Assembly: GCA_001314805.1 (NCBI GenBank)
Contig: LJSY01000040.1
Span: 1 to 33,365 of the forward strand
Direction: 5' to 3'
Source: Rhodobacteraceae bacterium HLUCCO18
GTDB taxonomy: Bacteria; Pseudomonadota; Alphaproteobacteria; Rhodobacterales; Rhodobacteraceae
DNA: 33,365 bases
A program made the position numbers and the translations under genes. The notes under the pieces were generated by a model that did not search any database, was not told where the DNA came from, and saw nothing but the letters and a program-made list of their open reading frames with translations. This document shows, piece after piece, positions 2,963 through 32,830 of the stretch. The number at the start of each line of letters is the position of its first letter. Positions within the stretch are counted from its first letter, which is position 1.

Positions 2963-2993
2963 CGGGCCGCGGTGCGAGAGCTGCCGCGGCCCG
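2963..2993 (+). other. intercistronic hairpin after the binding-protein gene
   Basis: Perfect 10-bp arms CGGGCCGCGG (2963-2972) and CCGCGGCCCG (2984-2993) with an 11-base loop, and no U-run after it. It sits between binding protein and ATPase genes. Such hairpins typically stabilise the upstream mRNA or attenuate transcription, so that the binding protein outnumbers the transporter. It also argues against an ATPase start at GTG 2972. Confidence 0.75.
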
Positions 2994-3025
2994 TTCCGCA
3001 TCCGACGCATCCGGGAACATCCGAC

Positions 3026-4570
3026 ATGACCGACGCTGCCGCCATCGAACTGAGGGGCATCTCCAAGGCCTTCGGCCCCGTGCAGGCCAACAAGGACATA
3101 TCGATGTCCGTCAAGCGCGGCACGATCCACGGCATCGTGGGCGAGAACGGCGCGGGCAAGTCGACGCTGATGTCGATCCTCTACGGCTTCTACAAGGCTG
3201 ACCGGGGCGAAATCTTCATCAACGGGCAAAAGACCGAGATCCCCGACAGCCAGGCCGCGATCCGCGCCGGCATCGGAATGGTTCATCAGCATTTCAAGCT
3301 GGTGGAGAATTTCACCGTCGTCGAGAACGTGATCCTCGGCGCGGAAGACGGCGCGATGCTGAACCCCTCCATCGCCAAGGCGCGCAGGACGCTCAAGGAA
3401 CTCAGCGAGGAATACGGCCTGAAGGTGGACCCCGACGCGATCATCGAGGACCTGAGCGTTGGCCACCAGCAGCGCGTCGAGATCCTGAAACAGCTTTACC
3501 GCCACGCCGACATCCTCATCCTCGACGAGCCCACGGGCGTGCTGACGCCCGCCGAGGCCGACCAGCTTTTCCGAATTCTCGAGCGGCTCAGGGAAGAGGG
3601 CAAGACCATCGTCCTCATCACCCACAAGCTGCGCGAGATCATGGAGATCACCGACACGGTCAGCGTGATGCGCCGCGGCGAGATGACGAACACGGTCGCG
3701 ACCGCCTCCACCTCTCCGGCCGAACTGGCCGAGATGATGGTCGGCCGAAAGGTCCTGCTCCGGGTCGAGAAGTCGCCTGCGAAACCGGGTGACGTGATGC
3801 TCAAGGTCGACGACTTGCGCGTCGTGCGCGACGGGGTGGAGAGGCTCAAGGGCGTCTCGCTTCACGTCCGCGCGGGGGAAATCCTCGGCATCGCGGGCGT
3901 GGCCGGAAACGGGCAGACCGAGCTGCTGGAGGTTCTGGGCGGGATGATCCCGGCAACAGGCGGTACCGTGACGGTCAGGAACGAGCAGATCGACGTCTCG
4001 GGCAAGCATTCGAACGGCCAGACCCGGCGCGCGCGCGGGATCGGTCATGTGCCCGAGGATCGGCAGGACGAGGGCCTCATCATGCCGTTCGAGGCTTGGG
4101 AGAACACGGCCTTCGGCTACCACAAGGACCCGAAATACAATCACGGGATGCTGATGGACAACGCCGCCATCAAGGCCGATTGCGCCGACAAGATGGAACG
4201 CTACGACGTGCGCCCGCCCAACCCGCGCCTGCCTGCGCGGAACTTCTCGGGCGGCAACCAGCAGAAGATCGTCGTCGCCCGCGAGATGGACCGCGCACCC
4301 GATATCCTTCTGGTGGGCCAGCCCACGCGCGGCGTCGATATCGGCGCGATCGAGTTCATCCACAAGGAAATCCTGCGGCTGCGCGACGAGGGCAAGGCGA
4401 TCCTGCTGGTCAGCGTCGAGCTTGACGAGATCATGGGGCTCAGCGACCGCATCGCCGTGATGTTCGACGGCAAGATCATGGGCGAACGCCTGCCGTCCGA
4501 GACCAACGAGAACGAGCTTGGCCTCCTGATGGCCGGCGTCACGGAAACCAGGGTCGGGGGGGCCGCGTAA
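3026..4570 (+). CDS. nucleoside ABC importer ATPase with two NBDs (NupO/YufO type)
   Basis: The 514-residue protein has two nucleotide-binding domains. NBD1 has Walker A GENGAGKS (39-46), signature LSVGHQQR and Walker B ILILDEPTGVLTP. NBD2 has a degenerate Walker A (GVAGNGQTE), signature FSGGNQQK and ILLVGQPTRGVDI in place of the usual Walker B. The degenerate second site and QPTRG motif are normal for sugar/nucleoside double ATPases. It energises uptake through the two following permeases. ATG 3026 is preferred: GGGAA lies just upstream, and the earlier GTG at 2972 falls inside the hairpin. The stop overlaps the next start as TAATG. Confidence 0.93.
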   Translation: MTDAAAIELRGISKAFGPVQANKDISMSVKRGTIHGIVGENGAGKSTLMSILYGFYKADRGEIFINGQKTEIPDSQAAIRAGIGMVHQHFKLVENFTVVENVILGAEDGAMLNPSIAKARRTLKELSEEYGLKVDPDAIIEDLSVGHQQRVEILKQLYRHADILILDEPTGVLTPAEADQLFRILERLREEGKTIVLITHKLREIMEITDTVSVMRRGEMTNTVATASTSPAELAEMMVGRKVLLRVEKSPAKPGDVMLKVDDLRVVRDGVERLKGVSLHVRAGEILGIAGVAGNGQTELLEVLGGMIPATGGTVTVRNEQIDVSGKHSNGQTRRARGIGHVPEDRQDEGLIMPFEAWENTAFGYHKDPKYNHGMLMDNAAIKADCADKMERYDVRPPNPRLPARNFSGGNQQKIVVAREMDRAPDILLVGQPTRGVDIGAIEFIHKEILRLRDEGKAILLVSVELDEIMGLSDRIAVMFDGKIMGERLPSETNENELGLLMAGVTETRVGGAA

Positions 4571-5685
4571 TGGACAAGATGCCGAAATGGGCCGATGTGA
4601 TCCTGATCCCCCTGATCAGCGTCCTTCTGGCGCTGATCGTGTCGGGCCTCGTGGTGCTGATAATCGGCGAGAACCCGATCGAGGCCATGCAGATCATGGT
4701 GCGCGGCGCCTTCGGGTCCGCCTATGGCTGGGGCTATACGCTTTATTATGCCACGAATTTCATCTTCACGGGCCTTGCCGTGGCGGTGGCCTTCCACGCG
4801 CGGCTCTTCAACATCGGGGGCGAGGGGCAGGCAGCACTCGGCGGCCTCGGCGTCGCCATCGTGCTTCTCAGCTTCGGCTGGCCGCACTGGACCATCGCGC
4901 TTCTGGCGGCGATTCTCGGCGCCGCGCTTTTCGGCGCGGCATGGGCTGCGGTGCCCGCCTATCTTCAGGCCAAACGCGGCAGCCACATCGTGATCACCAC
5001 GATCATGTTCAACTTCATCGCCTCGGCACTGCTGGTCTACCTTCTGGTCAACGTGTTCCGCGTGCCGGGCTCCATGGCGCCCGAAAGTGCGCGCTTCGCC
5101 GAGGCCGTGCACCTGCCCAGCGCCGCCGAATTCGCGGGCTTTCTGGGCTTTGGCGGCTCCACCCCGCTCAACTTCGCCTTCTTCGTCGCGCTGGTCTGCT
5201 GCGTCCTCGTCTGGATCCTGATCTGGCGCACGCGGCTGGGCTACGAGATCCGGGCCTTCGGCCATTCCGAAACGGCGGCGGTCTATGCCGGCATCAACCC
5301 GACCCGGATCATCATGATAACCATGCTGATCTCGGGCGGCCTGTCGGGGATGATGGCGATCAACGTCGTGATGGGCGAGGCCGAGCGTCTTGTCCTCGAC
5401 TTCACCGAAGGGGCGGGCTTCGTCGGCATCGCCGTGGCGCTGATGGGCCGGTCGCATCCCGTGGGCGTGGTCCTTGCCGCGCTCCTGTTCGGCGCGCTCT
5501 ACCAGGGCGGCGCGGAGCTTCAGTTCGAGATGCCCGCCGTCAGCCGCGAGATGATCGTCGTCATCCAGGCGCTTGTGATCATGTTCACAGGCGCGCTCGA
5601 CAACATGGTGCGCATGCCGATGGAAAAGATCTTCCTGTCGATCAGACGCAGCCGCGAATCCGGCAGCCAGAGCCCGGCGGAGTGA
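4570..5685 (+). CDS. nucleoside ABC importer permease 1 (NupP/YufP type)
   Basis: The 371-residue polytopic protein belongs to the BPD_transp_2 (branched-chain/ribose/nucleoside) family. Clear marks are the N-terminal membrane segment (ADVILIPLISVLLALIVSGL), GLAVAVAFHARLFNIGGEGQ with the conserved FNIGGEGQ, and a long series of hydrophobic helices. GLSGMMAINVVMGE lies near the C-terminal third. Its start overlaps the ATPase stop by one base, implying translational coupling. It pairs with the second, shorter permease to form the heterodimeric channel in the inner membrane. Family assignment is firm; the nucleoside substrate is inferred from the operon. Confidence 0.92.
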   Translation: MDKMPKWADVILIPLISVLLALIVSGLVVLIIGENPIEAMQIMVRGAFGSAYGWGYTLYYATNFIFTGLAVAVAFHARLFNIGGEGQAALGGLGVAIVLLSFGWPHWTIALLAAILGAALFGAAWAAVPAYLQAKRGSHIVITTIMFNFIASALLVYLLVNVFRVPGSMAPESARFAEAVHLPSAAEFAGFLGFGGSTPLNFAFFVALVCCVLVWILIWRTRLGYEIRAFGHSETAAVYAGINPTRIIMITMLISGGLSGMMAINVVMGEAERLVLDFTEGAGFVGIAVALMGRSHPVGVVLAALLFGALYQGGAELQFEMPAVSREMIVVIQALVIMFTGALDNMVRMPMEKIFLSIRRSRESGSQSPAE

Positions 5686-5689
5686 CAGA

Positions 5690-6667
5690 ATGGATTTCCT
5701 GACCGTCCTGCAGATCCTCGACAGTTCAATCCGGCTTGCCACACCGCTCCTGCTGGCCTGCCTTGCGGGCCTCTTTTCCGAGCGCGCGGGCATCTTCGAC
5801 ATCGGGCTCGAGGGCAAGATGTTGGCGGCCGCCTTCTTCTCGGCGGCCTTCGCCTTCACCTCGGGCTCCGTCTGGGTGGGCCTTTTCGCGGGGGTCGGCG
5901 CGTCGGTCTTCCTTTCCGGCCTGCATGGCGCGGCGTCGATCACCTTCCGCGGCAACCAGCTGATTTCCGGGGTGGCGATCAACTTCCTCGCCGCCGGCCT
6001 GACCGTGGTCATCGCGCAGACATGGTTCTCGCAGGGCGGGCGCACACCGCAACTGCCCTCGGAGGCGCGGTTCGGCAACATCGTGCTGCCCGGCGCGGAA
6101 AGTACCATTCGGGAAATCGCGCAGCTGGGACCATTGGGGCAGATCTATTCGGAACTCATCTCGGGCCACTCGATCCTCGTCTATATCGCCTTCCTGATCG
6201 TGCCGCTTACCTGGTGGGTGCTGTTCCGCACGCGGTTCGGCCTGCGCCTTCGGGCCGTGGGCGAAAACCCGGCCGCCGTCGATACCGCCGGCATCTCGGT
6301 CGTAGGCATGCGCTATGCCGCCGTCATCATCTGCGGCGTGCTGTGCGGACTGGCGGGCGCCTATCTGGCCACGGCGCTCAATGCGGGTTTCGTCAAGGAC
6401 ATGAGCGCGGGCCGCGGCTACATCGCGCTCGCCGCCCTCATCTTCGCCAAGTGGCGGCCCTGGTATGCGCTGATGGCCTGCCTGCTCTTCGGCTTCTTCG
6501 ACGCGGTCGGCAACCGGTTCCAGAACATCACGGTGGGCGAGATCGTCGTGCCGGTGCAGTTCATGCAGGCGCTGCCCTACATCCTCGTGGTCATCGTGCT
6601 TGCGGGGCTCGTGGGCAGGGCCATTCCGCCGCGCGCAGGAGGGGAGCCTTATGTCAAGGAACGCTGA
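5690..6667 (+). CDS. nucleoside ABC importer permease 2 (NupQ/YufQ type)
   Basis: The 325-residue polytopic permease is of the BPD_transp_2 family. The conserved early segment FSERAGIFDIGLEGKM is the counterpart of FNIGGEGQ in its partner. Further on, FRGNQLISGVAINFLAAGLT and a Gly/Ala-rich set of helices follow. It starts four bases after the stop of the first permease, and its 3' end overlaps the phosphorylase gene by 17 bases, so transport and phosphorolysis are made together. Heterodimeric partner of the upstream permease. Confidence 0.92.
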   Translation: MDFLTVLQILDSSIRLATPLLLACLAGLFSERAGIFDIGLEGKMLAAAFFSAAFAFTSGSVWVGLFAGVGASVFLSGLHGAASITFRGNQLISGVAINFLAAGLTVVIAQTWFSQGGRTPQLPSEARFGNIVLPGAESTIREIAQLGPLGQIYSELISGHSILVYIAFLIVPLTWWVLFRTRFGLRLRAVGENPAAVDTAGISVVGMRYAAVIICGVLCGLAGAYLATALNAGFVKDMSAGRGYIALAALIFAKWRPWYALMACLLFGFFDAVGNRFQNITVGEIVVPVQFMQALPYILVVIVLAGLVGRAIPPRAGGEPYVKER

Positions 6668-15689: not shown

Positions 15690-16376
15690 TTACTCGGCGG
15701 CACCGGGGGCGGCATCCGGGCCGCGATGCGGATTGCGCGCGACAGGAACGACCTTGAGCCAGTCCGCATAGGGCGGCGTGCGGGCAGCCTCCAGCAGGCT
15801 TTCGAGGTCGTCGAGCGGCGCCTCGCTCAGGTCGATACGCAGGTCGAGCGGCGGCGCGTCGGGACGGAGCACCAGAAGCGCCGCCGATTTCAGCCCCCGC
15901 GCGTCGCCACCCGCTCGGTCCGCTGCACGCAACGACGCCAGAGCGCGGTCTGCGGGATCCGTGCCGGCCGCCGCGTCCCACGCGCGGCGCATGGCGGGCA
16001 GCACGTCGCAATTGGCCAGCATGTTGCCCGCGCAGACGCCGTCGGCCCAACTCAGCGCGTCCGCCACGGCGACGGAGGCCGACCCGGTGAAGGCCGCGCC
16101 ATGCCCGTCCCGACCAAGCGCCGCGATCTGCCGGTGCCCGCGCTGCGGATCGACCCCGGTCACATCGCCCACAGCGGTGTCGGCCGGGGCGCCGTCGGCC
16201 ATGCGGGCCAGCACCTCGTCGCGCCACAGCGTCGAGGGCGCCGTGCCCTGCGACGCCACCAGCCCGGCGCCCAGCGCGCCGCGAATCACCCAGCCCCCAA
16301 CGCAGAGCGATCCGGTCGCCGAGGCGGCAACCAGAGCGCCTGTTTTTTCATCACGGGCAAGAAGCGAAAAGGTCAT
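15690..16376 (-). CDS. DUF1028 protein (Ntn-hydrolase-like)
   Basis: The 228-residue protein begins MTFSLLARDEKTGALVAASA, the standard N-terminus of DUF1028. Its interior has GAGLVASQGTAPSTLW and NMLANCDVLPAM, also typical. The structure of a Silicibacter pomeroyi member (as I recall, SPO2555) placed the family with N-terminal-nucleophile hydrolases, so an amide or peptide hydrolase is plausible, perhaps with Thr2 exposed after Met removal; that is inference. The start is at 16376, because an upstream in-frame ATG would run through the promoter/operator. It is transcribed divergently from a dipeptide-type ABC operon under apparently the same operator pair, which suggests it processes the imported compound. 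Confidence 0.85.
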   Translation of the reverse strand: MTFSLLARDEKTGALVAASATGSLCVGGWVIRGALGAGLVASQGTAPSTLWRDEVLARMADGAPADTAVGDVTGVDPQRGHRQIAALGRDGHGAAFTGSASVAVADALSWADGVCAGNMLANCDVLPAMRRAWDAAAGTDPADRALASLRAADRAGGDARGLKSAALLVLRPDAPPLDLRIDLSEAPLDDLESLLEAARTPPYADWLKVVPVARNPHRGPDAAPGAAE

Positions 16377-16404
16377 GGTGGATCCGCGAAACAATTTTCT
16401 TGAA

Positions 16405-16432
16405 TTTATCATGATCATTTGTCTCACTGCAA
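16405..16432 (-). promoter_or_regulatory. predicted promoter of DUF1028
   Basis: On the minus strand TTGCAG (16432-16427) and GATAAA (16410-16405) are separated by 16 bases. The -10 box lies within the left operator arm. The 5' leader would be about 25 bases. Confidence 0.5.
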
Positions 16433-16446
16433 TTCATCATGATAAA
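16419..16446 (+). promoter_or_regulatory. predicted promoter of the dipeptide ABC operon
   Basis: TTGTCT (16419-16424) and GATAAA (16441-16446) are separated by 16 bases. The -10 box lies within the right operator arm. It mirrors the divergent promoter, with interleaved -35 regions. Confidence 0.5.
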
Positions 16447-16467
16447 TTTTGTCAGAGAGGACACCCG

Positions 16468-18045
16468 ATGACGCTGCTCTCCCTAACACGGCGCAGGATG
16501 CTGGCGGCCACCGCCGCGACGGCGCTGGCGCTCGGCGGCCTGACGGCGGCCCAGGCGCAGACGCCCCCTGGCGTGCTGGTCGTGGGCCAGATCGCGGAAC
16601 CGCAGGCGCTCGACCCACATGCCGTGACCGCCGTCAACGACTTCCGCATCCTGATGAACGTCTACGACGGTCTCGTCCGCTACGCCTCGGGCACGCTGGA
16701 GGTCGAACCGGCGCTCGCGAGCGACTGGACGATCTCGGACGACGGAACGGTCTACACCTTCACGCTCCGCGATGGCGTGAGCTTCCACGACGGCTCCCCC
16801 TTCGACGCGGAGGCCGTTGTGTTCAACTTCGAACGCATGCTGAACGAGGATCACCCCTATCACGACACCGGTCCCTTCCCGCTGTCGTTCTTCTTCTCGG
16901 CGGTCGAAAGCGTCGAGGCGACGGGCGAGATGGAGGTGACCTTCACGCTCAACGCACCCTACGCGCCGTTCCTGTCGAACCTCGCCTATCCCACGGGCCT
17001 GATCGTCTCTCCGGCGGCGGTGATGGACCACGGGTCAGACTTCGGCCGCAACCCGTCGGGGACCGGCCCCTTCACCTTCACCGAGTGGCGGTCCAACGAG
17101 GCCGTGGTGGTCGAGGCCAATCCCGACTACTGGGACGGCGCGCCCGAGCTTGAGGCGGTCATCTTCCGCCCCATCACCGACGCCAACACCCGCACCGCCG
17201 AGATGCTGGCCGGCGGGATCGACGTGATGGTGGAAGTGCCCCCGGTGGCCCTCGGCGAGTTCCAGGGCGACGGCTTCACCGTGCACGAACAGGCCGGACC
17301 CCATGTCTGGTTCCTGATCCTGAACGCGCTCGAAGGTCCCTTCGCCGATGTCCGCGTCCGTCAGGCCGCGAACTACGCGATCAACAAGGAGGCCATCGTC
17401 AACGACGTGCTCGAAGGCACGGCCGAGGTCGCCGCGGGCCCCACGCCCCCCGCCTTCGCCTGGGCCTATAACGAGGAACTGGAACCCTACCCCTACGACC
17501 CCGACCGTGCCCGCGAACTGCTGGCCGAGGCGGGGATGGAGAACCCCGAGATCACCTTCTACGTGACCGAGGGCGGATCGGGCATGCTCGACCCCATCGC
17601 CATGGGCACCGCCATGCAGGCCGACCTCGAAGCCGTGGGCTTCGAGGTGACGATCGAGACCTATGAGTGGAACACCTTCCTCGGCGAGGTGAACCCCGGG
17701 CTGGAGGGCAAGGCCGACGCCGCGCAGATGTCGTGGATGACCAACGACCCCGACACCCTGCCCTATCTGGCGCTGCGCACCGCCGCATGGCCGGACGAGG
17801 GCGGTTTCAACTCGGGCTACTACTCCAACCCCGAGGTCGACGCGCTTCTCGAGGAGGCCCGCACCGCAACCGACCAGGACCGCCGCGCGGAGCTTTATCG
17901 CGAGATGCAGGTTATCGTGCAGGAAGACGCGCCCTGGGTCTTCGTGGCGAACTGGGTGCAGAACGCCGTGACGAGCGACCGTGTGGAAGGGTTCCAGCTT
18001 GAACCCTCCTTCTTCCTGCTGCTCGATGACGTGGTGAAGAACTGA
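16468..18045 (+). CDS. dipeptide-type ABC importer, family 5 solute-binding protein
   Basis: The 525-residue periplasmic protein has a twin-arginine-like basic n-region (SLTRRRMLAATAAT) and a signal ending around AQAQ. The SBP_bac_5 core shows VGQIAEPQALDPHAV, VYDGLVRY, LASDWTISDDGTVYTF, the characteristic FHDGSPFDAEAVVFNFERM, and NPSGTGPFTF. The length fits DppA/OppA-class proteins that bind di- and oligopeptides, glutathione, opines or nickel. GAGAGG eight bases before ATG 16468 sets the start. The first gene of a four-gene operon, it is followed by a strong hairpin. The specific ligand is unknown; the linked FadR-type regulator and DUF1028 protein suggest a small amide or peptide. Confidence 0.92.
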   Translation: MTLLSLTRRRMLAATAATALALGGLTAAQAQTPPGVLVVGQIAEPQALDPHAVTAVNDFRILMNVYDGLVRYASGTLEVEPALASDWTISDDGTVYTFTLRDGVSFHDGSPFDAEAVVFNFERMLNEDHPYHDTGPFPLSFFFSAVESVEATGEMEVTFTLNAPYAPFLSNLAYPTGLIVSPAAVMDHGSDFGRNPSGTGPFTFTEWRSNEAVVVEANPDYWDGAPELEAVIFRPITDANTRTAEMLAGGIDVMVEVPPVALGEFQGDGFTVHEQAGPHVWFLILNALEGPFADVRVRQAANYAINKEAIVNDVLEGTAEVAAGPTPPAFAWAYNEELEPYPYDPDRARELLAEAGMENPEITFYVTEGGSGMLDPIAMGTAMQADLEAVGFEVTIETYEWNTFLGEVNPGLEGKADAAQMSWMTNDPDTLPYLALRTAAWPDEGGFNSGYYSNPEVDALLEEARTATDQDRRAELYREMQVIVQEDAPWVFVANWVQNAVTSDRVEGFQLEPSFFLLLDDVVKN

Positions 18046-18049
18046 ACCC

Positions 18050-18079
18050 GTCGGCCCCGGGCGCGCGTCCGGGGCCGAC
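18050..18079 (+). other. intercistronic hairpin after the binding-protein gene
   Basis: Perfect 11-bp arms GTCGGCCCCGG (18050-18060) and CCGGGGCCGAC (18069-18079) with an eight-base loop, five bases after the stop. There is no U-run. It probably protects the binding-protein message or attenuates readthrough to the permease genes. Confidence 0.72.
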
Positions 18080-18101
18080 CGGAATTCTCGAGAGTTCCGC
18101 G

Positions 18102-18123
18102 CGGTTTTACACAAGGAAAACCG
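18102..18123 (+). other. second short hairpin before the permease gene
   Basis: CGGTTTT (18102-18108) pairs with AAAACCG (18117-18123) across an eight-base loop containing AAGG. It lies 16 bases before the permease start and may tune its translation. Confidence 0.4.
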
Positions 18124-18139
18124 TCGCTCCGGGGGGCTG

Positions 18140-19083
18140 ATGGCTGGCTACATCCTGAAACGACTGCTGTCCGCCGTGCCCGTGCTGATCGGCATCTCGG
18201 TCATCGTGTTCCTCATCATGGCGATGATCCCCGGCGATCCGGCGACGGCGATCCTCGGCTCCTTCGCGACGCCGGAAAACGTGGCCGCGCTGAACGAGGA
18301 TCTCGGCCTCGATAAACCGCTGGTGCAGCGGTATTTCATCTGGCTCGGCAACATGCTTCAGGGCGATTTCGGGCGCTCCTTCGCGCTCAACCGCCCGGTG
18401 CTCGACGAGGTGACGGAGCGTTTCAATGCCACGCTGGTGCTTGCCGGATCGGCATTCGTCCTGTGCACCGTGTTCGGCATCGCCGCCGGGGTCATCTCGG
18501 CCGCGAACCAGTACGGTCTCGCCGACAAGGCGATCACCTTCTTTGTTCTGCTGGGTATCTCCATCCCGTCCTTCTTCCTCGGCATGATGATGATCCTCGT
18601 CTTCGCCGTGAACCTGAGGTGGTTCCCCGTCTCGGGCATGTGGCCGATCTTCGGGGACCGGACGATCTGGGTCCTGCTCGACCACCTCGCCATGCCCGCG
18701 ACGGCGCTGGCCGTCGTGGCCACGGGCGTTGTCGCGCGCCTCTCGCGCTCGGCCATGCTGGAGGTGCTGCGGCAGGATTTCATCCGCACCGCGCGCGCCA
18801 AGGGCGTGCATGAACGCCGCGTGATCTGGGGCCATGCGCTCCGCGCCGCGATGGTCGCGATCATCCCGGTGCTCGGCCTTCAGGCGGGCTTCGTGCTGTC
18901 CGGGGCCGTCTATATCGAGATGGTGTTCCAGTGGCCGGGCGTGGGGCGGATGCTGGTGGACGCGATCCTGCGCCGCGACCTCCTGCTGGTGCAGGGCGGC
19001 GTCGTCTTCGTCGCGGCCTGCTACGTGATGTTCAACATCATGGTGGACGTGGCCCAGAGCCTGCTCGACCCGAGGATCAAGAC

Positions 19084-19087
<4 letters not shown>
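18140..19087 (+). CDS. dipeptide-type ABC importer permease (DppB class)
   Basis: The 315-residue inner-membrane permease is of the DppB/OppB class: the N-terminal helix GYILKRLLSAVPVLIGISVIV, followed by DPATAILGSFATPENVAALN, is the usual periplasmic loop. The coupling (EAA-type) loop is RQDFIRTARAKGVHERRV. Six membrane segments can be counted. GGGGGG just before ATG 18140 serves as a ribosome site. Its last four bases overlap the next start (ATGA). Confidence 0.92.
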
Positions 19088-20969
<1,882 letters not shown>

Positions 20970-20973
<4 letters not shown>

Positions 20974-21929
20974 CCGAGGCGCTGAAGCTCACCGGTCTTT
21001 CCAAGGCCTTCCCGGTCGGAAAGCGGCTGTTCGGGCCGCCGCGCGCGCTGGTGCGGGCGGTTCAGCCCGTGGACCTCGTCGTACAGAAGGGCGAGACGCT
21101 GGGCATCGTCGGCGAAAGCGGTTGCGGCAAGTCCACGCTGGCGCGGATGCTGGTGGGACTACTCGAACCGTCCTCCGGCCGGATCGAGATCGAGGGGGAA
21201 CCGCTGGACAACGCCGACCCGGCCGTCTTCGGCAAGAAGATCCAGTATGTCTTTCAGGATCCGATTTCCTCGCTGAACCCGCGCAAGACGATCCGCCAGA
21301 TCATGGAAGCGCCGCTGAAGCACCTTCACCGGATGGGCCCCGCCGCCCGCGCCGACCGCATCGCCGAGATCTTCGCCGCCGTGAACCTGCGCGAGGAGTT
21401 CCTCGACCGCTATCCGCACGAGTTCTCCGGCGGGCAGGCGCAGCGCATCGGCATCGCCCGCGCGCTGGCGGCGGACGCGCGCATCCTGATCCTCGACGAA
21501 CCGGTCTCGGCGCTCGACGTGTCGGTGCAGGCGCAGGTGCTGAACCTGCTGGCGGACCTCAAGGCGCAGTTCGGTCTGACCTACCTCTTCATCAGTCACG
21601 ATCTCGCCGTGGTGGAGGCGGTGTCCGACCGGATCGCCGTGCTCTATTTCGGCGCGGTGGTGGAGGTGGGCCCGGCGGTCGAGATCTTCGCCAACCCCCG
21701 CCATCCCTACACGAAGCTTCTGGCCGACAGCGCGCCGGTGGTCGGCCGCGCGCTCAAGGCACCGGAGGGGCGGGAGACGGAACTGCCGGACCCCGAAAAC
21801 CCGCCGGAGGGCTGTGCCTTCCGCGCCCGCTGCCCGCGCGCGACGGCGCTTTGCGCCGCCGAAGTGCCCCCATTGACGGGCGAGGGCGGGCGGCACCCGG
21901 CCGCCTGCCACCACCCGCTCGAGGCCTGA
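20970..21929 (+). CDS. dipeptide-type ABC importer ATPase (DppF class)
   Basis: The 319-residue ATPase has Walker [10 protein letters not shown] near residue 50, Q-loop [11 protein letters not shown], signature [15 protein letters not shown], Walker [13 protein letters not shown] and the H-loop FISHDLAVV. The C-terminal oligopeptide/dipeptide motif is [11 protein letters not shown], with cysteines that in some relatives bind an Fe-S cluster. It forms the heterodimeric motor with the ATPase half of the upstream fusion. Last gene of the operon, it ends 12 bases before the stop of the convergent small membrane-protein gene. Confidence 0.93.
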
Positions 21930-21941
21930 CGCAGCGCGGTC

Positions 21942-22115
21942 TCAGCGCCGTCCGCGCAGCACGCGCCAGAGCACGACCGCGCCCGCCACCGTCAGGACCA
22001 CGGCCGCGACCGCGGTCTCGATGCCATGGGGATGGAAGTGGAAGAAGCCGGCATCCTCATGGGCCACTGCCGGGGTGGCGAGCATCAGGAGGGCGGGGAA
22101 CAGGATACGGGCCAT
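21942..22115 (-). CDS. 57-residue His-containing membrane protein at the end of the guanidine operon
   Basis: This frame reads MARILFPALLMLATPAVAHE as an N-terminal signal, probably cleaved after AVA. Then comes DAGFFHFHPHG with four histidines, one transmembrane helix (TAVAAVVLTVAGAVVLWRVL) and a basic tail RGRR. A topology with the His segment in the periplasm fits. It starts three bases after the stop of the His-rich gene, with a GGACC-type ribosome site inside that gene's end. Small size and close linkage suggest a metal-related accessory to the hydrolase, possibly at the import step. I know no named family. Confidence 0.7.
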   Translation of the reverse strand: MARILFPALLMLATPAVAHEDAGFFHFHPHGIETAVAAVVLTVAGAVVLWRVLRGRR

Positions 22116-22118
22116 GGG

Positions 22119-22538
22119 TCAGGTCCTTTCTTTCGCGGCGATGAAATCGCGGATGTCGATCAGGTGTTTTTCGTCCATCGAGACGTAGACGAGGGCCATG
22201 TTGGTCCGCTCGCGGATCATCTCGCCGGGAAACGGGAGGTAAGACAACTCCCGCGTGCCGAAGGAGGGCGAGGCGGTGCCGACCTGCCACTCGGTCTTCA
22301 GTTCCACGTCCACCAGCTTCAGCTCACTCGGCCCCGCCTTGCCGGGGCGTTCCAGAGGCACGCCGGCAAGGCGCAGATAGGCCTGCTTGTCCTTCGCCGC
22401 GACGAAACCGTCGATGAACTGCGCGGTCAGAACCTGCAGGTCGGCGGCCGCATCCTCGGGCGTCAGGTGGGAATGAAGGTGATCGGCGTGGTGGTGGTTG
22501 TGGTGGTTGTAATGATGGTGCGGATGATCATGGGGCAT
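22119..22538 (-). CDS. His-rich protein, candidate metallochaperone for the hydrolase
   Basis: The 139-residue cytoplasmic product (no signal) has 13 histidines in its first 24 residues (MPHDHPHHHYNHHNHHHADH and onward), a pattern known from nickel-storage or nickel-delivery proteins such as HypB and UreE tails. Residues 28-139 form a compact domain (LQVLTAQFIDGFVAAKDKQAY, FPGEMIRERTNMALVYVSMD) that I do not recognise. It overlaps the hydrolase gene by 11 bases and so is translationally coupled to it. Since characterised guanidine hydrolases are nickel enzymes needing HypA/HypB-like helpers (GhaA/GhaB), this protein is a good candidate for an alternative nickel donor. Function is inference. 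Confidence 0.8.
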   Translation of the reverse strand: MPHDHPHHHYNHHNHHHADHLHSHLTPEDAAADLQVLTAQFIDGFVAAKDKQAYLRLAGVPLERPGKAGPSELKLVDVELKTEWQVGTASPSFGTRELSYLPFPGEMIRERTNMALVYVSMDEKHLIDIRDFIAAKERT

Positions 22539-23766
22539 TGGACCAGCGCCTTCCTTCGAACTCCCCGTGAGGGATGGTGACGGGCTTGTCGATATGGGCC
22601 TTATGGGCGCCCATCTTGCCCGCCGCGACCATGGAGCCCAGAACGTCCACGATCACCCGCGTGCCCATCAGCGCGGTGATGTCGGAGGTGTCGTAGGGCG
22701 GCGAGACCTCCACCAGCTCCATCCCGCAGAGCCCCTCGGCCGCGACCTTGGACGCAAGCGCCAGCGCCTCGCGCGGCAGGAAGCCGCCGGGTTCGGGCCA
22801 GCCGGTGCCGGGAACGAAGCCGCAGTCGATACTGTCGATGTCGAAGGACATGTAGACCATGTCCGCCCCGTCCCACGCCATCTCGAGCGCCATCTCGGCG
22901 GTCCTGTCGATGCCCATCCGCTCCATGTCGGACATGGTGATGATGTTGGTCTCGCGCTCGCGGGCGACCTTCACCGCCTCGCGCGGGACCTGCCAGCCGC
23001 CGATGCCCACCTGCACGAGGTTCTTCGCCGGAACGTTCGGCAGGTTCGTCGAATGGAACCACGGCGTGGTGTGCATCCGCTCGTCGAGGTCCTTCTCCTG
23101 GATGTCGGCGTGGCGGTCGAAATGCACGATGCCGATGGTCTTGGACGTGCATTCCGCGATGCCGCGCACGCAGGGAAAGCCGATGGAATGGTCGCCGCCG
23201 ATCATCACCGGGAAGCTGCCGGAGGAAAACACGTGGCTGACCGCGCGGCTGATCTGGTCGAAGCTCTTTTCGAGGTTCGCCGGGATCGTGAAGACGTCGC
23301 CCGCGTCGCAGAGCGTCATCTGCTCGCGCAGGTCGACGGCCATCTCGTAGTTGTAGGGCGTGTAGAGGGCGGAGATCCTGCGCAGGCCCTGCGGCCCGAA
23401 GCGGGTGCCGGGGCGGTAGGTGGTGCCGCCGTCGAAGGGGATGCCGAGCACGGTCGCGTCGTAATGGCCGACCTCGGTCACGTCCTCGGCATAGGGCGCC
23501 TTGAGGAAGGTGTTGATGCCGGCATAATGCGGCAGCTCGCCCCGCGCGAAGGTGGGGATCGACTTGTCCTCGATCGTGTCCGCACCGGTCAGGCCCATCC
23601 GCAGAGCCCAGCGCCGCTCCTCGTCCCAGCGGTCCCCGGGGATGTCGGCCTCGGCCTTCATGGAGCGCCACCCCTGGAGCTTCGTGAGGTCGGGGTGATG
23701 GCGCCGACGGTCCCTGAGGGGCCGGTCGGCGGGGTGATGCGAGCGGGAACGCTCGAGAGGGGTCAT
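22528..23766 (-). CDS. gdmH: ureohydrolase, probable nickel-dependent guanidine hydrolase (agmatinase-like)
   Basis: The 412-residue arginase/agmatinase-fold enzyme has metal ligands in the canonical set: His193 (GGDHSIG), Asp217, His219 and Asp221 (HFDRHADIQ), and Asp309 and Asp311 (SFDIDSID). PGTGWPEPGG follows at 319-328. Differences from agmatinase (usually about 320 residues) are a long N-terminal extension (about 90 residues before VGHYDATVLGIPFDGGT), DRH instead of DAH, and a Trp in the substrate-loop motif GTGWPEPGG. The start is set by AAGGAG seven to eight bases before 23766. The gene lies in an operon headed by a guanidine-I riboswitch with its own importer. Known riboswitch-linked ureohydrolases (Synechocystis Sll1077) split guanidine to urea and ammonium using nickel. 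Agmatinase activity is the alternative. Confidence 0.85.
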   Translation of the reverse strand: MTPLERSRSHHPADRPLRDRRRHHPDLTKLQGWRSMKAEADIPGDRWDEERRWALRMGLTGADTIEDKSIPTFARGELPHYAGINTFLKAPYAEDVTEVGHYDATVLGIPFDGGTTYRPGTRFGPQGLRRISALYTPYNYEMAVDLREQMTLCDAGDVFTIPANLEKSFDQISRAVSHVFSSGSFPVMIGGDHSIGFPCVRGIAECTSKTIGIVHFDRHADIQEKDLDERMHTTPWFHSTNLPNVPAKNLVQVGIGGWQVPREAVKVARERETNIITMSDMERMGIDRTAEMALEMAWDGADMVYMSFDIDSIDCGFVPGTGWPEPGGFLPREALALASKVAAEGLCGMELVEVSPPYDTSDITALMGTRVIVDVLGSMVAAGKMGAHKAHIDKPVTIPHGEFEGRRWSNAP

Positions 23767-23795
23767 GCGGTCTCTCCTTCGCTTGACGGGTATGG

Positions 23796-24584
23796 TCAGG
23801 CCACGCTCGGGACGGCTGCGGCCAGCACCTGCGCGGGGTGCGTGTCTTCCCGAAGCTGGAACGGGATGCCGCCGTTCCGGGCGTCGAAATCATATGTGAT
23901 CGTCGCACCATAGGCGGCGGGGTCGTGCGGGTCCCAGCGCACCTTGTCGAAGACCAGCACCCGGTCGCCCAGCTTGAACGCCTCGGGCAGGTCATGGGTG
24001 ACCATGAACACGGTCATCCGCGTCTCCGTGCGCAGGTCCTTCAGGAATTCGTGCATCTGCTCCCGCGTGCCGGGGTCGAGCGCGCCGAAAGGTTCATCCA
24101 GCAGCAGAATGCGCGGCTTGGCGGCCAGCGTCTGCGCGATGGCAAGCCGCTGCTGCATGCCGCCCGACAGCGCCGAAGGATACTGGTCGGCCACATGGGC
24201 GAGCCCGATCCGCTCCAGCGCGGCATCGGCGCGCGACCGTGCGGCGCGCTTGACGCTGCCGAAAAGCCGCCCAAGCGGGCGGGACAGCCCCTCGGCGGCC
24301 ACGATGTTGTCGCGCACGCTCAGATGCGGAAAGACGGAATACCGCTGAAACACGATGCCCCGCGACCGGTCGGGTTCTCCCTTGAGCGGCATGCCGTCCA
24401 CGGTGATCCCGCCGCGCGTGGGCCGCTCCTGATCCAGCAGAAGCCGCAGGAAGGTGGACTTGCCGCAGCCCGAGGCGCCGACGATGGAGACGAATTCCCC
24501 CTCCGTCGCGTCCAGCGAGACGCGCTCCAGGATCGGCCGTCCGCCATAGCTCTGGAAGATGTCCCGGACCTCGACGAAGCTCAT
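23796..24584 (-). CDS. ABC importer ATPase (nitrate/taurine/guanidine type)
   Basis: The 262-residue ATPase is of the NrtD/SsuB/TauB class: Walker A GASGCGKST near residue 40, Q-loop FQRYSVFPH, signature LSGGMQQRLAIAQ, Walker B LLLDEPFGALD and H-loop MVTHDLPEA. The C-terminal 45 residues (WDPHDPAAYGATITYDFD onward) extend past the usual end and are also seen in relatives next to urea-carboxylase genes. The start overlaps the permease stop (ATGA at 24584-24581). With the adjacent permease and binding protein it forms an importer that, by its riboswitch, should carry guanidine. Confidence 0.9.
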   Translation of the reverse strand: MSFVEVRDIFQSYGGRPILERVSLDATEGEFVSIVGASGCGKSTFLRLLLDQERPTRGGITVDGMPLKGEPDRSRGIVFQRYSVFPHLSVRDNIVAAEGLSRPLGRLFGSVKRAARSRADAALERIGLAHVADQYPSALSGGMQQRLAIAQTLAAKPRILLLDEPFGALDPGTREQMHEFLKDLRTETRMTVFMVTHDLPEAFKLGDRVLVFDKVRWDPHDPAAYGATITYDFDARNGGIPFQLREDTHPAQVLAAAVPSVA

Positions 24585-25393
24585 GCCCGCGCCTCCGCCC
24601 ACGGATAAAGCCACCGTGACAACCGCGCGAGGCCCCAGTCGATGAGGAAGGCCAGCACCGTGATCCACGCCACGTAGGTCAGGATCACGTCCATCGCAAG
24701 GAAGCGCCGCACGAGGAAGATGCGGTAACCCAGACCGCTGTCCGAGGCCACGGCCTCCGCCGCGATCAGGAACAGCCACGCCGGCCCCAGCGACAGGCGC
24801 ACCGCCGAGATCAGGCGCGGCATGATCTGCGGCAGCGCGACCGAGACCGCGATGGCGAAGGTCGAGGCGCCCAGCGTCTGCGCCTTGACCAGCTGCTCTT
24901 GCGGCAATTCCAGCGTGCGTGCCGAAAGATCTCGGATCAGGAACGGCGTGATGCCGATGGCGATCAGCGCCACCTTCGCCGTGTCCCCCACGCCCAGCGT
25001 GATGAAGAGGATCGGCAGGACCGCGAGCGGCGGGATCATCGACAGGATCGCCACGAACCCCTGAAACGTGCTGCGGATCACCGGGACAAGGCCGATGGCC
25101 AGCCCGAAGACCAGCCCGATCAGCGCCGCGATGCCGACGCCCGCGCCCAGCAGCGTGAGGCTCGATACCGTGTCGCCCCAGAACAGGATGTCACCCGACC
25201 GGCGGTCCGGCTCGCTGACAAGCCGCACCGCCGTTTCGACCAGCGTCGCCGGCGACGGCAGGACCCGGTCCTGCGGGTTTTCCGCAAGCCGCGCCGCCGA
25301 TCCGGCGGAATAGGCGAGGAAGACCAGCACGAAGGGCAGCGCGGCGAGCGTCGCATGGCCCGCCCGCCCCGGCATGCGGTTGATCCATCGCAT
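24581..25393 (-). CDS. ABC importer permease (SsuC/TauC class) of the guanidine operon
   Basis: The 270-residue permease has about six membrane helices. It starts with a cytoplasmic stretch (MRWINRMPGR), then LAALPFVLVFLAYSAGSAA, and carries the EAA-type coupling loop LVKAQTLGASTFAIAVSVAL PQIMP (continuous in the protein). The C-terminal helices include VILTYVAWITVLAFLIDWG. The start 25393 has GAGGGGGG upstream, and the frame beyond it is a shadow of the binding-protein gene. It is 22 bases downstream of the binding-protein stop. Confidence 0.9.
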   Translation of the reverse strand: MRWINRMPGRAGHATLAALPFVLVFLAYSAGSAARLAENPQDRVLPSPATLVETAVRLVSEPDRRSGDILFWGDTVSSLTLLGAGVGIAALIGLVFGLAIGLVPVIRSTFQGFVAILSMIPPLAVLPILFITLGVGDTAKVALIAIGITPFLIRDLSARTLELPQEQLVKAQTLGASTFAIAVSVALPQIMPRLISAVRLSLGPAWLFLIAAEAVASDSGLGYRIFLVRRFLAMDVILTYVAWITVLAFLIDWGLARLSRWLYPWAEARA

Positions 25394-25415
25394 CGCCGTG
25401 CCCCCCTCGCCCGGC

Positions 25416-26480
25416 TCAGAGCGACCCGTCGGCGGCCATCTGCATGTAGGTCGTGTCGAAGCGCAGCTGCACGTTGTCGGGATCGCCCGTGATCGCGCCA
25501 CCGGGATATTCGACGCCGACGAAATCCGCGCTCGGCGCGCCTTCGCCCAGGATACCCTGTTCGAACAGGAACTCGGCCACGGTGACCATGGTCTCGGGCA
25601 GGGCCTCGCTCTCGACGAAGGCCACGGCCTCGGCGGGATCGTAGAACATCTGGGTCGAGGCAAGCTGCGCCTCGTAACCGGCGAGGTCGGTGCCGGAGGC
25701 CTCGGCCATGGCGGTCCGCGCGGCGATCCCTTCCTCCGTGTCGGAGGACATGATGGCCATCAGTTCATACCAAGCCCCCACAAGCGCGCGCCCGAAATCG
25801 GGGTTCGCCTCCAGCGTCTCGGTGTTCACGACCATCATGTCGATGATCTCGCCGGGGATATCGGAACTGTCGAAGAGCATGTTGGCCCCGGGTGTCTCCA
25901 TGATCGTGGAGACCAGCGGGTTCCACGTCACCACCGCTTGCACATCTTCGGTCTGGAAGGCCGCGATCATGTCCGCGTCCGAGGTGTTGACCACGCCGTC
26001 GAGGTCACGCTCGGCGAGCCCGACCGAGTCCAGCGCGCGGGCCAGCAGGTAATGCGACACCGACAGCTCCACGAGGTTCACCGGCATGCCGGCAAGGTCC
26101 GCGATGCCGCCCTCCCCCTTCAGGATCACCGCATCGTTGCCGTTGGAAAAATCGCCAACGATCAGCGCCGTGGTGTCCACGCCCGAGCCCGCCGGGATCG
26201 ACAGCGTGTCCATGTTGGTGGCGGTGACACCGTCGAATTCGCCCGAGGTATAGAGGTTGATCGACTCCACGTAGTCGTTGATCTGCACGATCTCCACGTC
26301 GATGCCGTAGCGCTCGGCCCAGCGGTCCATGATCCCGCTTTCCTCGAGATACCCCCAGGGCATCCAGCCCACATAGATCGACCAGGCGACGCGGAACTCG
26401 GTGCGGTCCTGGGCCGTGGCGGTGGCGGGGCTCAGCGCGAGGCCGAGGGCAGTGGTGGCGGCAAGGGCGGTTCTTAGCAT
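25416..26480 (-). CDS. ABC importer substrate-binding protein, probable guanidine binder
   Basis: The 354-residue periplasmic binding protein is of the NMT1/TauA-like superfamily. Its signal MLRTALAATTALGLALSPAT ends near ATAQ. The mature part starts with EFRVAWSIYVGWMPWGYLEE and has DGVTATNMDTLSIPAGSG, which resemble the binding proteins found beside urea carboxylase genes (often annotated putative urea ABC binding protein). The many acidic and aromatic residues would suit a cation such as guanidinium. The start 26480 is fixed by GGAGGT with seven bases of spacing; in-frame ATGs upstream lie in the riboswitch leader. First gene of the operon. Confidence 0.9.
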   Translation of the reverse strand: MLRTALAATTALGLALSPATATAQDRTEFRVAWSIYVGWMPWGYLEESGIMDRWAERYGIDVEIVQINDYVESINLYTSGEFDGVTATNMDTLSIPAGSGVDTTALIVGDFSNGNDAVILKGEGGIADLAGMPVNLVELSVSHYLLARALDSVGLAERDLDGVVNTSDADMIAAFQTEDVQAVVTWNPLVSTIMETPGANMLFDSSDIPGEIIDMMVVNTETLEANPDFGRALVGAWYELMAIMSSDTEEGIAARTAMAEASGTDLAGYEAQLASTQMFYDPAEAVAFVESEALPETMVTVAEFLFEQGILGEGAPSADFVGVEYPGGAITGDPDNVQLRFDTTYMQMAADGSL

Positions 26481-26487
26481 CTGCGAT

Positions 26488-26519
26488 ACCTCCGATCGGA
26501 TCATGAGTGTGGTCCGACC
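26488..26519 (-). promoter_or_regulatory. ribosome site and adjacent hairpin, possible riboswitch expression platform
   Basis: The Shine-Dalgarno GGAGGT (26493-26488) is directly preceded by a hairpin: GGTCGGA (26519-26513) pairs with TCCGATC (26500-26494), one G-U, 12-base loop. The site could alternatively pair with CCTCC at 26538-26534, or fold in the palindrome TCCGATCGGA (26500-26491). No U-tract terminator is seen, so control of translation is more likely than of transcription. Confidence 0.5.
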
Positions 26520-26554
26520 GGAAAGGATGTCGGGGAGGGGCCGAACCATCTGCG

Positions 26555-26671
26555 ACAGAGCTCTCCCGGGATTTTGGCCCGCCGTGGACCGGGCGGAATT
26601 TGCCGACCGGCTGCATTTCTCGGACCAGACCCTTCGGACGGCGTCGGAAGGCGGAACCCTAAATGCTCTGT
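26555..26671 (-). ncRNA. guanidine-I (ykkC class) riboswitch aptamer
   Basis: Read on the minus strand, the 117-base element carries the conserved core in order: AGGGTTCCG (26660-26652), CTGGTCCGAGA (26628-26618), CACGGCGGG (26586-26578), AAAA, and CCCGGGAGAG (ending near 26560). P1 is closed by ACAGAGC (26671-26665) with GCTCTGT (26561-26555), seven perfect pairs. A side stem CCTTC/GAAGG sits between the first two motifs. This class senses free guanidinium and turns on genes for its export, import or breakdown. It begins 75 bases before the binding-protein start and heads the whole minus-strand operon. Identification is by motif, not by covariance search. Confidence 0.93.
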
Positions 26672-26680
26672 GCGCTTCAA

Positions 26681-26709
26681 CCGTCTTTTGCGACCGAACC
26701 GCCTGTCAA
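26681..26709 (-). promoter_or_regulatory. tentative promoter of the guanidine operon
   Basis: A perfect -35 box TTGACA lies at 26709-26704 on the minus strand. The -10 region 16-17 bases later (around 26687-26681, AAGACGG) is poor. Transcription would start within a few bases of the riboswitch P1 stem, which supports the placement. Confidence 0.4.
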
Positions 26710-31090: not shown

Positions 31091-31493
31091 CCAATTCAAT
31101 GCCTTAGCAAGCCAGAAGGTCGGCAAGTACCCGCCGCCCTTCTCGCTGCGCCTGACCTTCGAGGAGAGGGCCAGGCTGGACGTGCTGCGGGGCAACATGC
31201 CGCTCGGACAGTACATCCGCGAGCAACTGCTCGGGGATGATGCTGCGCCGCGCAAGAGACGGGTGCGGACTCCGGTCAAGGATGAAGAGGCCTTGGGCCG
31301 GGTCCTTGCTGAGCTTGGCAATTCCCGGCTGTCGCAGAACCTGAACCAGCTGGCGCGGGCGGTGAACACCGGCTCGCTGCCGGTCTCGCCTGAAGTCGAA
31401 GCCGATCTTCGGGACGCCTGTAGGGCAGTCGCCGAGATGCGCGAAGCGCTGCTCAAGGCTCTTGGCTCCAGACCTTCAGGGGGTGAGCCATGA
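31062..31493 (+). CDS. mobC: MobC-like relaxosome protein
   Basis: The 143-residue protein has an N-terminal part with FSLRLTFEERARLDVLRG, like a ribbon-helix-helix DNA-binding segment. The conserved MobC region LGNSRLSQNLNQLARAVNTG is followed by LPVSPEVEADLRDAC. MobC proteins bind near oriT and help the relaxase open and nick it. The stop overlaps the relaxase start (ATGA). Two start codons (31062 and 31074) are possible; neither has a strong ribosome site. Confidence 0.85.
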   Translation: MGASMSTLHNQFNALASQKVGKYPPPFSLRLTFEERARLDVLRGNMPLGQYIREQLLGDDAAPRKRRVRTPVKDEEALGRVLAELGNSRLSQNLNQLARAVNTGSLPVSPEVEADLRDACRAVAEMREALLKALGSRPSGGEP

Positions 31494-32830
31494 TCCTGAA
31501 GGCTTCCCAGCGGGCCAATGCCGCGAACCTGTCTCGCCACCTGCTGAACGCTAAAGACAACGAACACGTCGAGCTCCACGATCTGCGGGGCTTCATGGCC
31601 GATGATCTGGACGGGGCGCTGAAGGAAGCCGAGTGCATCGCCAGGGGCACGCGCTGCCAGCAATTCCTGTTCTCGATTTCCTTAAGCCCGCCGCAAGACC
31701 AAGACGTTTCCATCGAAACCTTCGAAACCGCCATCGCCATGATCGAGCAAAAGCTCGGTCTGGAGGATCAGCCGCGCGCCATTGTCTTCCACGAGAAGGA
31801 CGGGCGCAGGCACTGCCATGCCGTCTGGAGCCGGATCGACGCGCAGGAGATGAAGGCGATCAACCTGCCGTTCTTCAAGAACCGGCTGATGGAGATATCG
31901 CGCGAGCTCTATCTGGAGCATGGCTGGGACATGCCGCACGGCATGATCGACCGCGCGCTCCGCAATCCGCTCAACTTTAGCCGCGCCGAGTATCAGCAGG
32001 CCAAACGCCTCGGCAGCGATCCGCGGCTGGTAAAGGCGCTGTTTCAGGAGGCATGGCAACGCTCGGACAACCCGGACAGCCTGAAGGCGGCGCTGGCCGA
32101 AAAGGGCTTCTATCTGGCGCGCGGCGACCGGCGCGGTGTCGTTGTTCTCGATTATCGCGGCGACGTCTACGCCCTCGCCCGTTGGGCGGGGGTCAAGACG
32201 AAGGAGGTGAAAGAACGGCTTCCGGATGCCGATAAGCTGCCGTCGGTGCAGGAACGCAGCGCCGAGATTGCTGGGCTGATGCGGGACCGGCTCAAGGGCT
32301 TCGAGGCCGAGATCAAGACGGCCCATGCGAAGCAGCGTCCCTCGATTGAGTTTCGGCGCAAGCAGATGGTGGACCGGCAACGCGTGGAACGCCGTGAGCT
32401 GACCGAGCGCCACGAGCGCCGCCGTGACCAGGAAAACGCCGTTCGCGCGGCGCGCTTGCCCAAAGGGGTGCGTGGGCTCTGGTCACGGCTGACCGGGAGC
32501 TATTCCAGGATCAGGGCGCAGAACGAGCTGGAGACCTGGCGCAGCCATCTGCGGGACCGTGAAGAGCGGGAAAACATGATTGTTCGCCAGCTCGATGAGC
32601 GGCGGCACCTTCAGCTTTCAATCCGCAAGCAGCGCGAGACCTTCGCGCGCGAGCTCTTCGGGATCAGGCAGGACATCGCAACATACCTGCGTATGCAGCG
32701 CGGCGAGTTGCCTGCGCTCGAGCTTACCGACGAGCGCCCGCGCCAGAGCAAAAACAACGACAAGACCAGGGACCGCAGCCGCCGCAAAGACCGGCGGCCT
32801 GACGGTCCGGGCTTCGACCCAGATTTATGA
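31490..32830 (+). CDS. MobA/VirD2-type relaxase
   Basis: The 446-residue protein has an N-terminal nuclease domain (about 1-180) with the three-His metal motif in FHEKDGRRHCHAVWSR (His101, His108, His110). Relaxases nick oriT and carry the strand to the recipient. The middle part (LKAALAEKGFYLARGD) is a conserved segment of alphaproteobacterial relatives. The C-terminal 200 residues are highly charged and helical (KQMVDRQRVERRELTERHER), probably coiled-coil. No tyrosine occurs before residue 130, so a classical motif I Tyr is missing; His17 (LSRHLLN) is the best alternative nucleophile, as in MobM of pMV158. Fused catalytic-helical layout is usual for this family. Confidence 0.88.
   Translation: MILKASQRANAANLSRHLLNAKDNEHVELHDLRGFMADDLDGALKEAECIARGTRCQQFLFSISLSPPQDQDVSIETFETAIAMIEQKLGLEDQPRAIVFHEKDGRRHCHAVWSRIDAQEMKAINLPFFKNRLMEISRELYLEHGWDMPHGMIDRALRNPLNFSRAEYQQAKRLGSDPRLVKALFQEAWQRSDNPDSLKAALAEKGFYLARGDRRGVVVLDYRGDVYALARWAGVKTKEVKERLPDADKLPSVQERSAEIAGLMRDRLKGFEAEIKTAHAKQRPSIEFRRKQMVDRQRVERRELTERHERRRDQENAVRAARLPKGVRGLWSRLTGSYSRIRAQNELETWRSHLRDREERENMIVRQLDERRHLQLSIRKQRETFARELFGIRQDIATYLRMQRGELPALELTDERPRQSKNNDKTRDRSRRKDRRPDGPGFDPDL

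Follow-up and report, generated by a model that had tools for sequence, protein, structure and literature searches.

The DNA analyzed here, referred to as the window, is a stretch of 33,365 nucleotides from contig LJSY01000040.1 of Rhodobacteraceae bacterium HLUCCO18 (assembly GCA_001314805.1). On its minus strand, a Guanidine-I riboswitch aptamer (26561..26673) is followed by six downstream genes, all in the same orientation, that encode the three components of an ATP-binding cassette (ABC) importer, a 412-residue ureohydrolase identified below as GdmH (22528..23766), a 139-residue His-rich protein (22119..22538), and a 57-residue membrane micropeptide (21942..22115). The count of six genes and the coordinates given in an initial annotation made from the sequence alone both proved correct. 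It is probable that the locus is a guanidine-induced nitrogen-scavenging operon in which the His-rich protein supplies GdmH with nickel.

An Operon Headed by a Guanidine-I Riboswitch

The aptamer was identified with cmscan and Rfam 15 applied to the whole window. The match to RF00442 scored 77.2 bits (E = 2.8e-12) against a curated gathering threshold of 63, spanned the full model (positions 1-107), and was the sole Rfam match in the window at gathering thresholds. A Guanidine-I aptamer standing before an importer and a ureohydrolase, as put forward in the initial annotation, is thus confirmed by the covariance model. As for the perfect P1 stem described there, the strands GCAUUU and AAAUGC can pair; the outermost pair is non-standard with respect to the Rfam consensus. 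A single Guanidine-I copy was found in the genome, with 103 of 167 first-look candidates scored.

Relatives of the operon were collected by scanning genome contigs with a GdmH alignment. The best 80 of 566 confirmed stretches, together with 3 plasmid records, make up the 83 loci referred to hereafter; the best-80 sample leans to near relatives, and most of its genera are presumably Rhodobacterales. In 76 of the 83 loci, a motif search located a Guanidine-I-like leader no more than 400 nt upstream of the binding-protein match. Of the seven others, two (L025 and L058) lack a binding-protein match and two (L065 and L086) start just before theirs; L085 has the leader but likewise lacks the match, and the search found no motif in L042 and L066. 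When Rfam was applied to 12 loci, Guanidine-I exceeded the gathering threshold in 6 and was not found above it in L123, L125, L127, L128, L130, and L132. Among 24 genomes treated in the same way, 15 exceeded the threshold, G731 fell below it, and the gdmH carriers G012, G516, and G715 gave no match. Given the strength of the match in the window and the same gene order in relatives, the riboswitch-headed operon is real, and chance is ruled out.

The leader between the aptamer and the first gene (26481..26560) is the putative expression platform and is predicted to form a hairpin over the Shine-Dalgarno (SD) sequence of that gene. Two platform types were considered and rejected. For a terminator-type platform, pairing between the 3′ end of the aptamer and the downstream sequence was no better than in shuffled sequences (76 distinct leaders; median shuffle fraction of 0.6). 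For SD sequestration, into which the window leader folds, the mean SD pairing in relatives was 0.69 versus 0.72 in shuffles; pairing was above that of the leader's own shuffles in 18 of 31 usable leaders, the other 45 having no SD sequence by the rule used.

Identity of the Ureohydrolase

A phmmer search of PDB sequences with the ureohydrolase returned 7esr and 7oi1, which are one sequence in this search, at E = 1.8e-164 and 9fek at E = 1.7e-159; the next entry, 1gq6, followed at E = 1.2e-49. Published work is cited here by PMC number, and statements drawn from it refer to the portions of text available. 7oi1 is the Synechocystis enzyme (Sll1077), 9fek is the Nitrospira guanidinase, and the guanidine specificity of Sll1077 is set by Thr97 and Trp305 (PMC11410670). 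T116 and W323 of the window enzyme align to these two residues, and both are invariant in the alignment. The mapping was counted from the alignment, with chain numbers less 2, and the same offset leads to Thr105 and Trp313 of 9fek. The dimetal motifs GGDHS, HFDRHAD, and SFDID are intact, in agreement with the ureohydrolase dimetal site read at the outset.

In a tree of 30 rows, the window enzyme grouped with Sll1077 and 9fek, with a 100/100 split from the four other ureohydrolases included (a guanidinobutyrase, a guanidinopropionase, a proclavaminate amidinohydrolase, and the genome's own paralogue). The grouping with Sll1077, apart from other ureohydrolases, had been anticipated and was recovered, in a tree that holds no characterized agmatinase. 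Long branches were flagged, and the branching order within the guanidinase part is weak. Agmatinase models scored below their cut-offs, TIGR01230 at 164.9 versus 174.3 bits and PRK02190 at 205.8 versus 302 bits. Judged by the PDB relatives, the Thr/Trp pair, the tree, and these scores, the window enzyme is very likely GdmH and not an agmatinase, as had been suspected. A ureohydrolase fragment (44% over residues 80-158) was also observed at a contig end of the same genome (G000:C41:29514-29747; L003).

Linkage of the His-rich Gene to gdmH

The His-rich gene lies directly after gdmH in 83 of 83 loci. With translation assumed to begin at the start codon closest to the gdmH stop, the gene starts within 20 nt of that stop in 74 loci and shares 11 nt with the end of gdmH in 31, an overlap also observed in the window. 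Because of this overlap, the His-rich gene is probably translationally coupled to gdmH.

Two draws of genomes were searched for both genes. Among 398 Pseudomonadota genomes, gdmH (E ≤ 1e-100) was present in 6 and the His-rich gene in 7, namely the same 6 and G293. Among 385 Alphaproteobacteria, gdmH scored above 700 bits in 11 and at 331-334 bits in 2 more, and the His-rich gene was present in 13, the same 11 together with G540 and G758. The draws overlap in G000 (the HLUCCO18 genome) and G335, which leaves 15 distinct genomes with a full-scoring gdmH; in all 15, both genes were found on the same contig within about 410 nt. A set of 61 relatives contained the His-rich gene in 6, including the HLUCCO18 genome; in each of the remaining five, gdmH is adjacent. 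Within the genus, its occurrence is patchy (2 of 4 others). The sample sets overlap, G002 and G004 being the same genomes as L014 and L013.

Three His-rich matches were found without gdmH. Those in G293 (L122) and G540 (L125) are C-terminal pieces; the latter match contains a TGA, and its stretch of 11.5 kb lacks gdmH. In G758 (L126:6019-7035), a riboswitch and the start of a gene for a substrate-binding protein (SBP) run into the His-rich core, the His stretch is C-terminal, and the permease, the ATPase, and gdmH were not found in the 8.5-kb stretch. All three look like remnants, that of G758 like a deletion remnant. Neither draw yielded a complete His-rich gene, with a start of its own, in the absence of gdmH. 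In L117, the riboswitch is followed by gdmH and the His-rich gene, and no ABC genes turned up within the 13-kb stretch; the link is thus to gdmH rather than to the importer.

Two weaker GdmH-like ureohydrolases (52-56% identity), L123 (G499) and L124, have no His-rich gene in 11 kb and in the 3.3 kb to the contig end, respectively. Both initially seemed to be counterexamples to the linkage. L123 has Thr for the specificity Trp and no riboswitch in its 11 kb, and for these reasons it is probably no guanidinase. The sequence of L124 is cut before the specificity residue. In L123 (2760-8266), a LysR-like gene (by eye) and the gene for an NMT1-type binding protein precede the ureohydrolase, and a cysteine hydrolase-like gene (by eye) and one for a glutamine amidotransferase-domain protein (GATase_6) follow it. 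Such a locus may perhaps encode a pathway for another guanidino compound.

Sequence and Predicted Structure of the His-rich Protein

The window protein consists of a His-rich N-terminal tail and a conserved core of 115 residues. It belongs to no Pfam or NCBIfam family, and these collections gave no sequence match to the known nickel chaperones HypA, HypB, UreE, and SlyD. Forty-eight members scanned singly against Pfam yielded a best E of 0.014, to an unrelated model, and a profile of 48 members yielded nothing below E = 0.12 among PDB sequences. Among the papers listed by keyword searches of the PMC open library, no title or abstract opening deals with a His-rich protein beside a guanidinase, an earlier mention elsewhere being possible. 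Codon differences from four relatives fall mostly at third positions, as in the comparison with L013 (12, 7, and 34 by position in 98 core codons). Because of this excess of third-position changes, the open reading frame is, by its pattern of divergence, a real gene.

The AlphaFold2 model of the full-length protein, built with 45 sequences, had a mean confidence (pLDDT) of 80.9 and a low-confidence tail. Modeling of the core with 53 sequences gave a pLDDT of 93.0 and a template-modeling score (pTM) of 0.77, with two helices, a strand-rich part, and a final helix. Foldseek returned no PDB match at E ≤ 0.001 for either model. A relation to COMM domains was considered, given that such chains stood among the top Foldseek rows; their E values (0.1 to 2.4) are non-significant, and no relation is claimed. 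Among members, the His tail differs in length and position but is mostly N-terminal. In L086 (L086:3957-4496), a long His stretch is found at the C terminus instead.

A Conserved N-terminal Element in Linked GdmH Proteins

Near its N terminus, the window GdmH contains the segment HHPDLTKLQGW (residues 23-33; 23668..23700). The corresponding pattern, HHP and then GW after 4 to 18 residues, was present in 96 of 96 linked GdmH frames and in 0 of 6 unlinked relatives (L113-L116, L123, and L124), of which L113-L115 have Trp at the specificity position and L116 and L123 have Thr. An earlier, looser pattern (HHP with D, E, N, or A before the IPTF motif) matched 106 of 114 frames and missed L073 through a wrong anchor. 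The distribution of the HHP..GW element suggests that it may be a docking site for the His-rich protein.

Potential Sources of Nickel

Activation of GdmH in Synechocystis is reported to need GhaA and GhaB (PMC11271267, PMC10094980), and picocyanobacteria have hypA and hypB homologues in the cluster (PMC10119275). The HLUCCO18 genome gave no HypA match and matched the HypB model only below its cut-off, so that HypA and hydrogenase-type HypB, the GhaA/GhaB type of maturation pair, were not found there. HypA was present in 5 of the 11 carrier genomes searched, and these 5 also have HypB above the cut-off of its model; neither was found over cut-off in the other 6 (G000; G004; G012, 82% complete; G230; G335; and G447). 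Weaker matches to the HypB model, at 67 to 85 bits, lie on the contig with the urease alpha gene in 10 of the 11 genomes and are probably UreG. None of the 83 loci matched HypA queries taken from five genomes. The urease alpha subunit is encoded in the HLUCCO18 genome, as in all 11 carrier genomes searched; urea should therefore be usable.

A HupE/UreJ gene stands directly after the His-rich gene in Sinorhizobium fredii NGR234 (L012) and in G230 (L118), with Pfam scores of 153.3 and 169.3 bits versus 23. In metformin hydrolase operons, hypA and hypB stand before, and hupE after, a related nickel ureohydrolase (PMC11399263).

In the window, a gene starting 3 nt after the His-rich stop encodes the micropeptide, a possible periplasmic metal binder. 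By eye, it comprises a signal-like segment, A-x-A and then His, a His-rich HFHPHG loop, and one transmembrane-like stretch; it gave no Pfam match at E up to 0.1. When a rule drawn up post hoc (44 to 130 residues, a start near the stop, and A-x-A-H or A-A-H) was applied, 41 of the 83 loci had a similar micropeptide, and 39 of these overlap the His-rich gene by ATGA. The idea that the micropeptide is a shortened HupE was rejected, given that none of six such peptides taken from other loci matched HupE_UreJ in Pfam at a limit of E = 10, with filters that drop most matches above 0.1.

The Importer and Its Genomic Setting

The first gene of the operon (25416..26480) encodes a periplasmic SBP of the NMT1/SsuA type, a probable guanidine binder that matches Pfam NMT1_2 and NMT1. 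It passes TIGR03427, titled "putative urea ABC transporter substrate-binding protein," at 538.8 bits (cut-off of 333.9), a score that does not test the cargo in the title. The ABC permease (24581..25393) is of the TauC/SsuC type, with 64.4 bits to PF00528 and TauC/SsuC models below cut-off. The ABC ATPase (23796..24584) is of the nitrate/sulfonate/taurine kind, with 119.1 bits to PF00005 and no NCBIfam ATPase model over cut-off among the matches listed. Given the riboswitch and what has been published on the importer of Synechocystis (PMC12186494, PMC10094980), we infer that the cargo is probably guanidine. In Limimaricola, the orthologous proteins carry the labels "putative urea ABC transporter substrate-binding protein" and "agmatinase family protein"; the point made at the outset, that automatic annotation would miss the probable cargo and enzyme, is a fair one.

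In Limimaricola, SC52, and S. fredii, the orthologous operons are plasmid-borne. A relaxase domain (MobA/VirD2-like, PF03432, 58.1 bits) was observed at 31490-32830 (+) of the window, and on this account the contig is possibly plasmid DNA or a mobilizable element. A convergent dipeptide/oligopeptide ABC transporter (15778-21929, +) ends 12 nt from the guanidine operon. It includes a 680-residue frame (18931-20973) that joins an OppC-type permease and an ATPase, and its other permease scored 307.3 versus 350 for a nickel/peptide permease model. Further ABC importer genes at 2972-6667 (+) include a BPD_transp_2 permease and an ATPase whose frame contains two ABC stretches.

Discussion

The features of the operon are consistent with the following scheme. 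Guanidine would bind the Guanidine-I leader and turn the operon on, and the NMT1/Tau-type importer would take guanidine up. GdmH, as a nickel-dependent ureohydrolase, would convert it to ammonium and urea, and the urease of the genome would process the latter. The tail of the His-rich protein would gather Ni2+ and hand it over to GdmH, perhaps via docking at the HHP..GW element, and would thereby do the job of GhaA and GhaB (HypA/HypB type) of Synechocystis. Nickel entry may be aided by the micropeptide or, in two other loci, by HupE. A His-rich family tied to alphaproteobacterial GdmH most likely replaces GhaA/GhaB. That it constitutes a new family of GTPase-independent nickel metallochaperones specific to guanidine hydrolase in Alphaproteobacteria, perhaps with a new fold, which docks on HHP..GW, such that two unrelated maturation systems serve one enzyme, is a further proposition to which we give even chances.

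Several observations weigh against nickel delivery by the His-rich protein. The available text of PMC11410670 reports no chaperone near comammox guanidinases, and the actinobacterial L113-L115, which keep the specificity Trp, gave no His-rich gene within 6 kb; a dedicated chaperone is thus not always needed. For metformin hydrolase, co-expression of chaperones was without effect on in vitro activity in one study (PMC11271267), though deletion stopped growth. Linked GdmH proteins form one clade in the tree (100/99), and both the linkage and the HHP..GW element may therefore partly mirror common descent. The HHP..GW pattern was settled after looking, and its looser predecessor also matched the unlinked L113 and missed the linked L132 (HHPS). 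The His tail is short or almost absent in L129, L130, L131, and L132. HupE is rare, given that the L012 query recovered, besides itself, none of the 83 loci and a single one (L118) of 17 additional loci. As Foldseek gave no significant match, a chaperone fold lends the role no support. Finally, the window protein searched alone (P0005) gave a weak match among PDB sequences, tagged eIF5A-2 (E = 0.0028), which we take for chance or the His tag.

The His-rich protein could instead store or buffer nickel so that free Ni2+ stays low, like Hpn of Helicobacter, and not act as an insertion factor. A tail that varies in length and place, being long and C-terminal in L086, would fit such a role, as would the comammox guanidinase, which obtains some metal without known chaperones (PMC11410670). 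By contrast, the core of 115 residues is conserved and confidently modeled, no whole copy with its own start turned up apart from gdmH in the two draws, and the nearly tail-less members fit a docking core better; we regard a store as unlikely. Strict co-occurrence with one enzyme clade and the HHP..GW element would be in keeping with a structural or allosteric partner of GdmH that has no metal role, and the near absence of the tail in some members points the same way. The His-rich tail in most members seen and the presence of HupE alongside in two loci argue against this possibility, which we consider somewhat less probable still. Finally, the enzyme could be an agmatinase or another guanidino hydrolase, with an importer that carries another substrate such as urea. 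The scores attained by the two NCBIfam agmatinase models and an SBP over the cut-off of a "putative urea" model speak for it. However, both agmatinase scores lie under their cut-offs, and the Thr and Trp residues, the tree, and the riboswitch all disagree with it, which makes it very improbable.

HypB, UreE, and SlyD carry a His-rich terminal stretch of variable length. With these proteins and with Hpn, the His-rich protein of the window showed no sequence relation in the searches made and no significant fold match.

The riboswitch-importer-GdmH type of operon is already known from Synechocystis, and the nickel side is the new part. The sll1077-1082 genes of Synechocystis PCC 6803 (GdmH, GhaA, GhaB, and an ABC importer) share with the window, as far as the published text available goes, control by Guanidine-I, the GdmH Thr/Trp residues, and a TauABC-type importer. 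By contrast, GhaA and GhaB were not found in the window, where the operon has an unrelated His-rich protein together with a membrane micropeptide, and the gene order differs. The guanidinase operon of the comammox organism Nitrospira inopinata shares the Guanidine-I riboswitch and the GdmH clade (PDB 9fek); it differs in having an APC permease in place of the ABC importer, and the available text of PMC11410670 reports no chaperone and mentions no His-rich protein. The MefH/DmgH and MetCaCb operons for metformin and dimethylguanidine hydrolases are similar in combining a nickel ureohydrolase, dedicated chaperones, and HupE directly downstream (PMC11271267, PMC11399263), and differ in their HypA/HypB chaperones, a two-subunit enzyme, and other substrates.

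The nickel source of guanidinases without HypA/HypB-type chaperones is stated to be an open point for comammox (PMC11410670). A compact, client-specific candidate in Alphaproteobacteria, present in 11 of 385 drawn genomes and at no fewer than 80 loci, makes the nickel question testable with two genes. A role is suggested for two genes without a name, and the "urea" and "agmatinase" labels of their neighbor genes are put in question. The operon would represent a second arrangement of guanidine use besides the cyanobacterial one.

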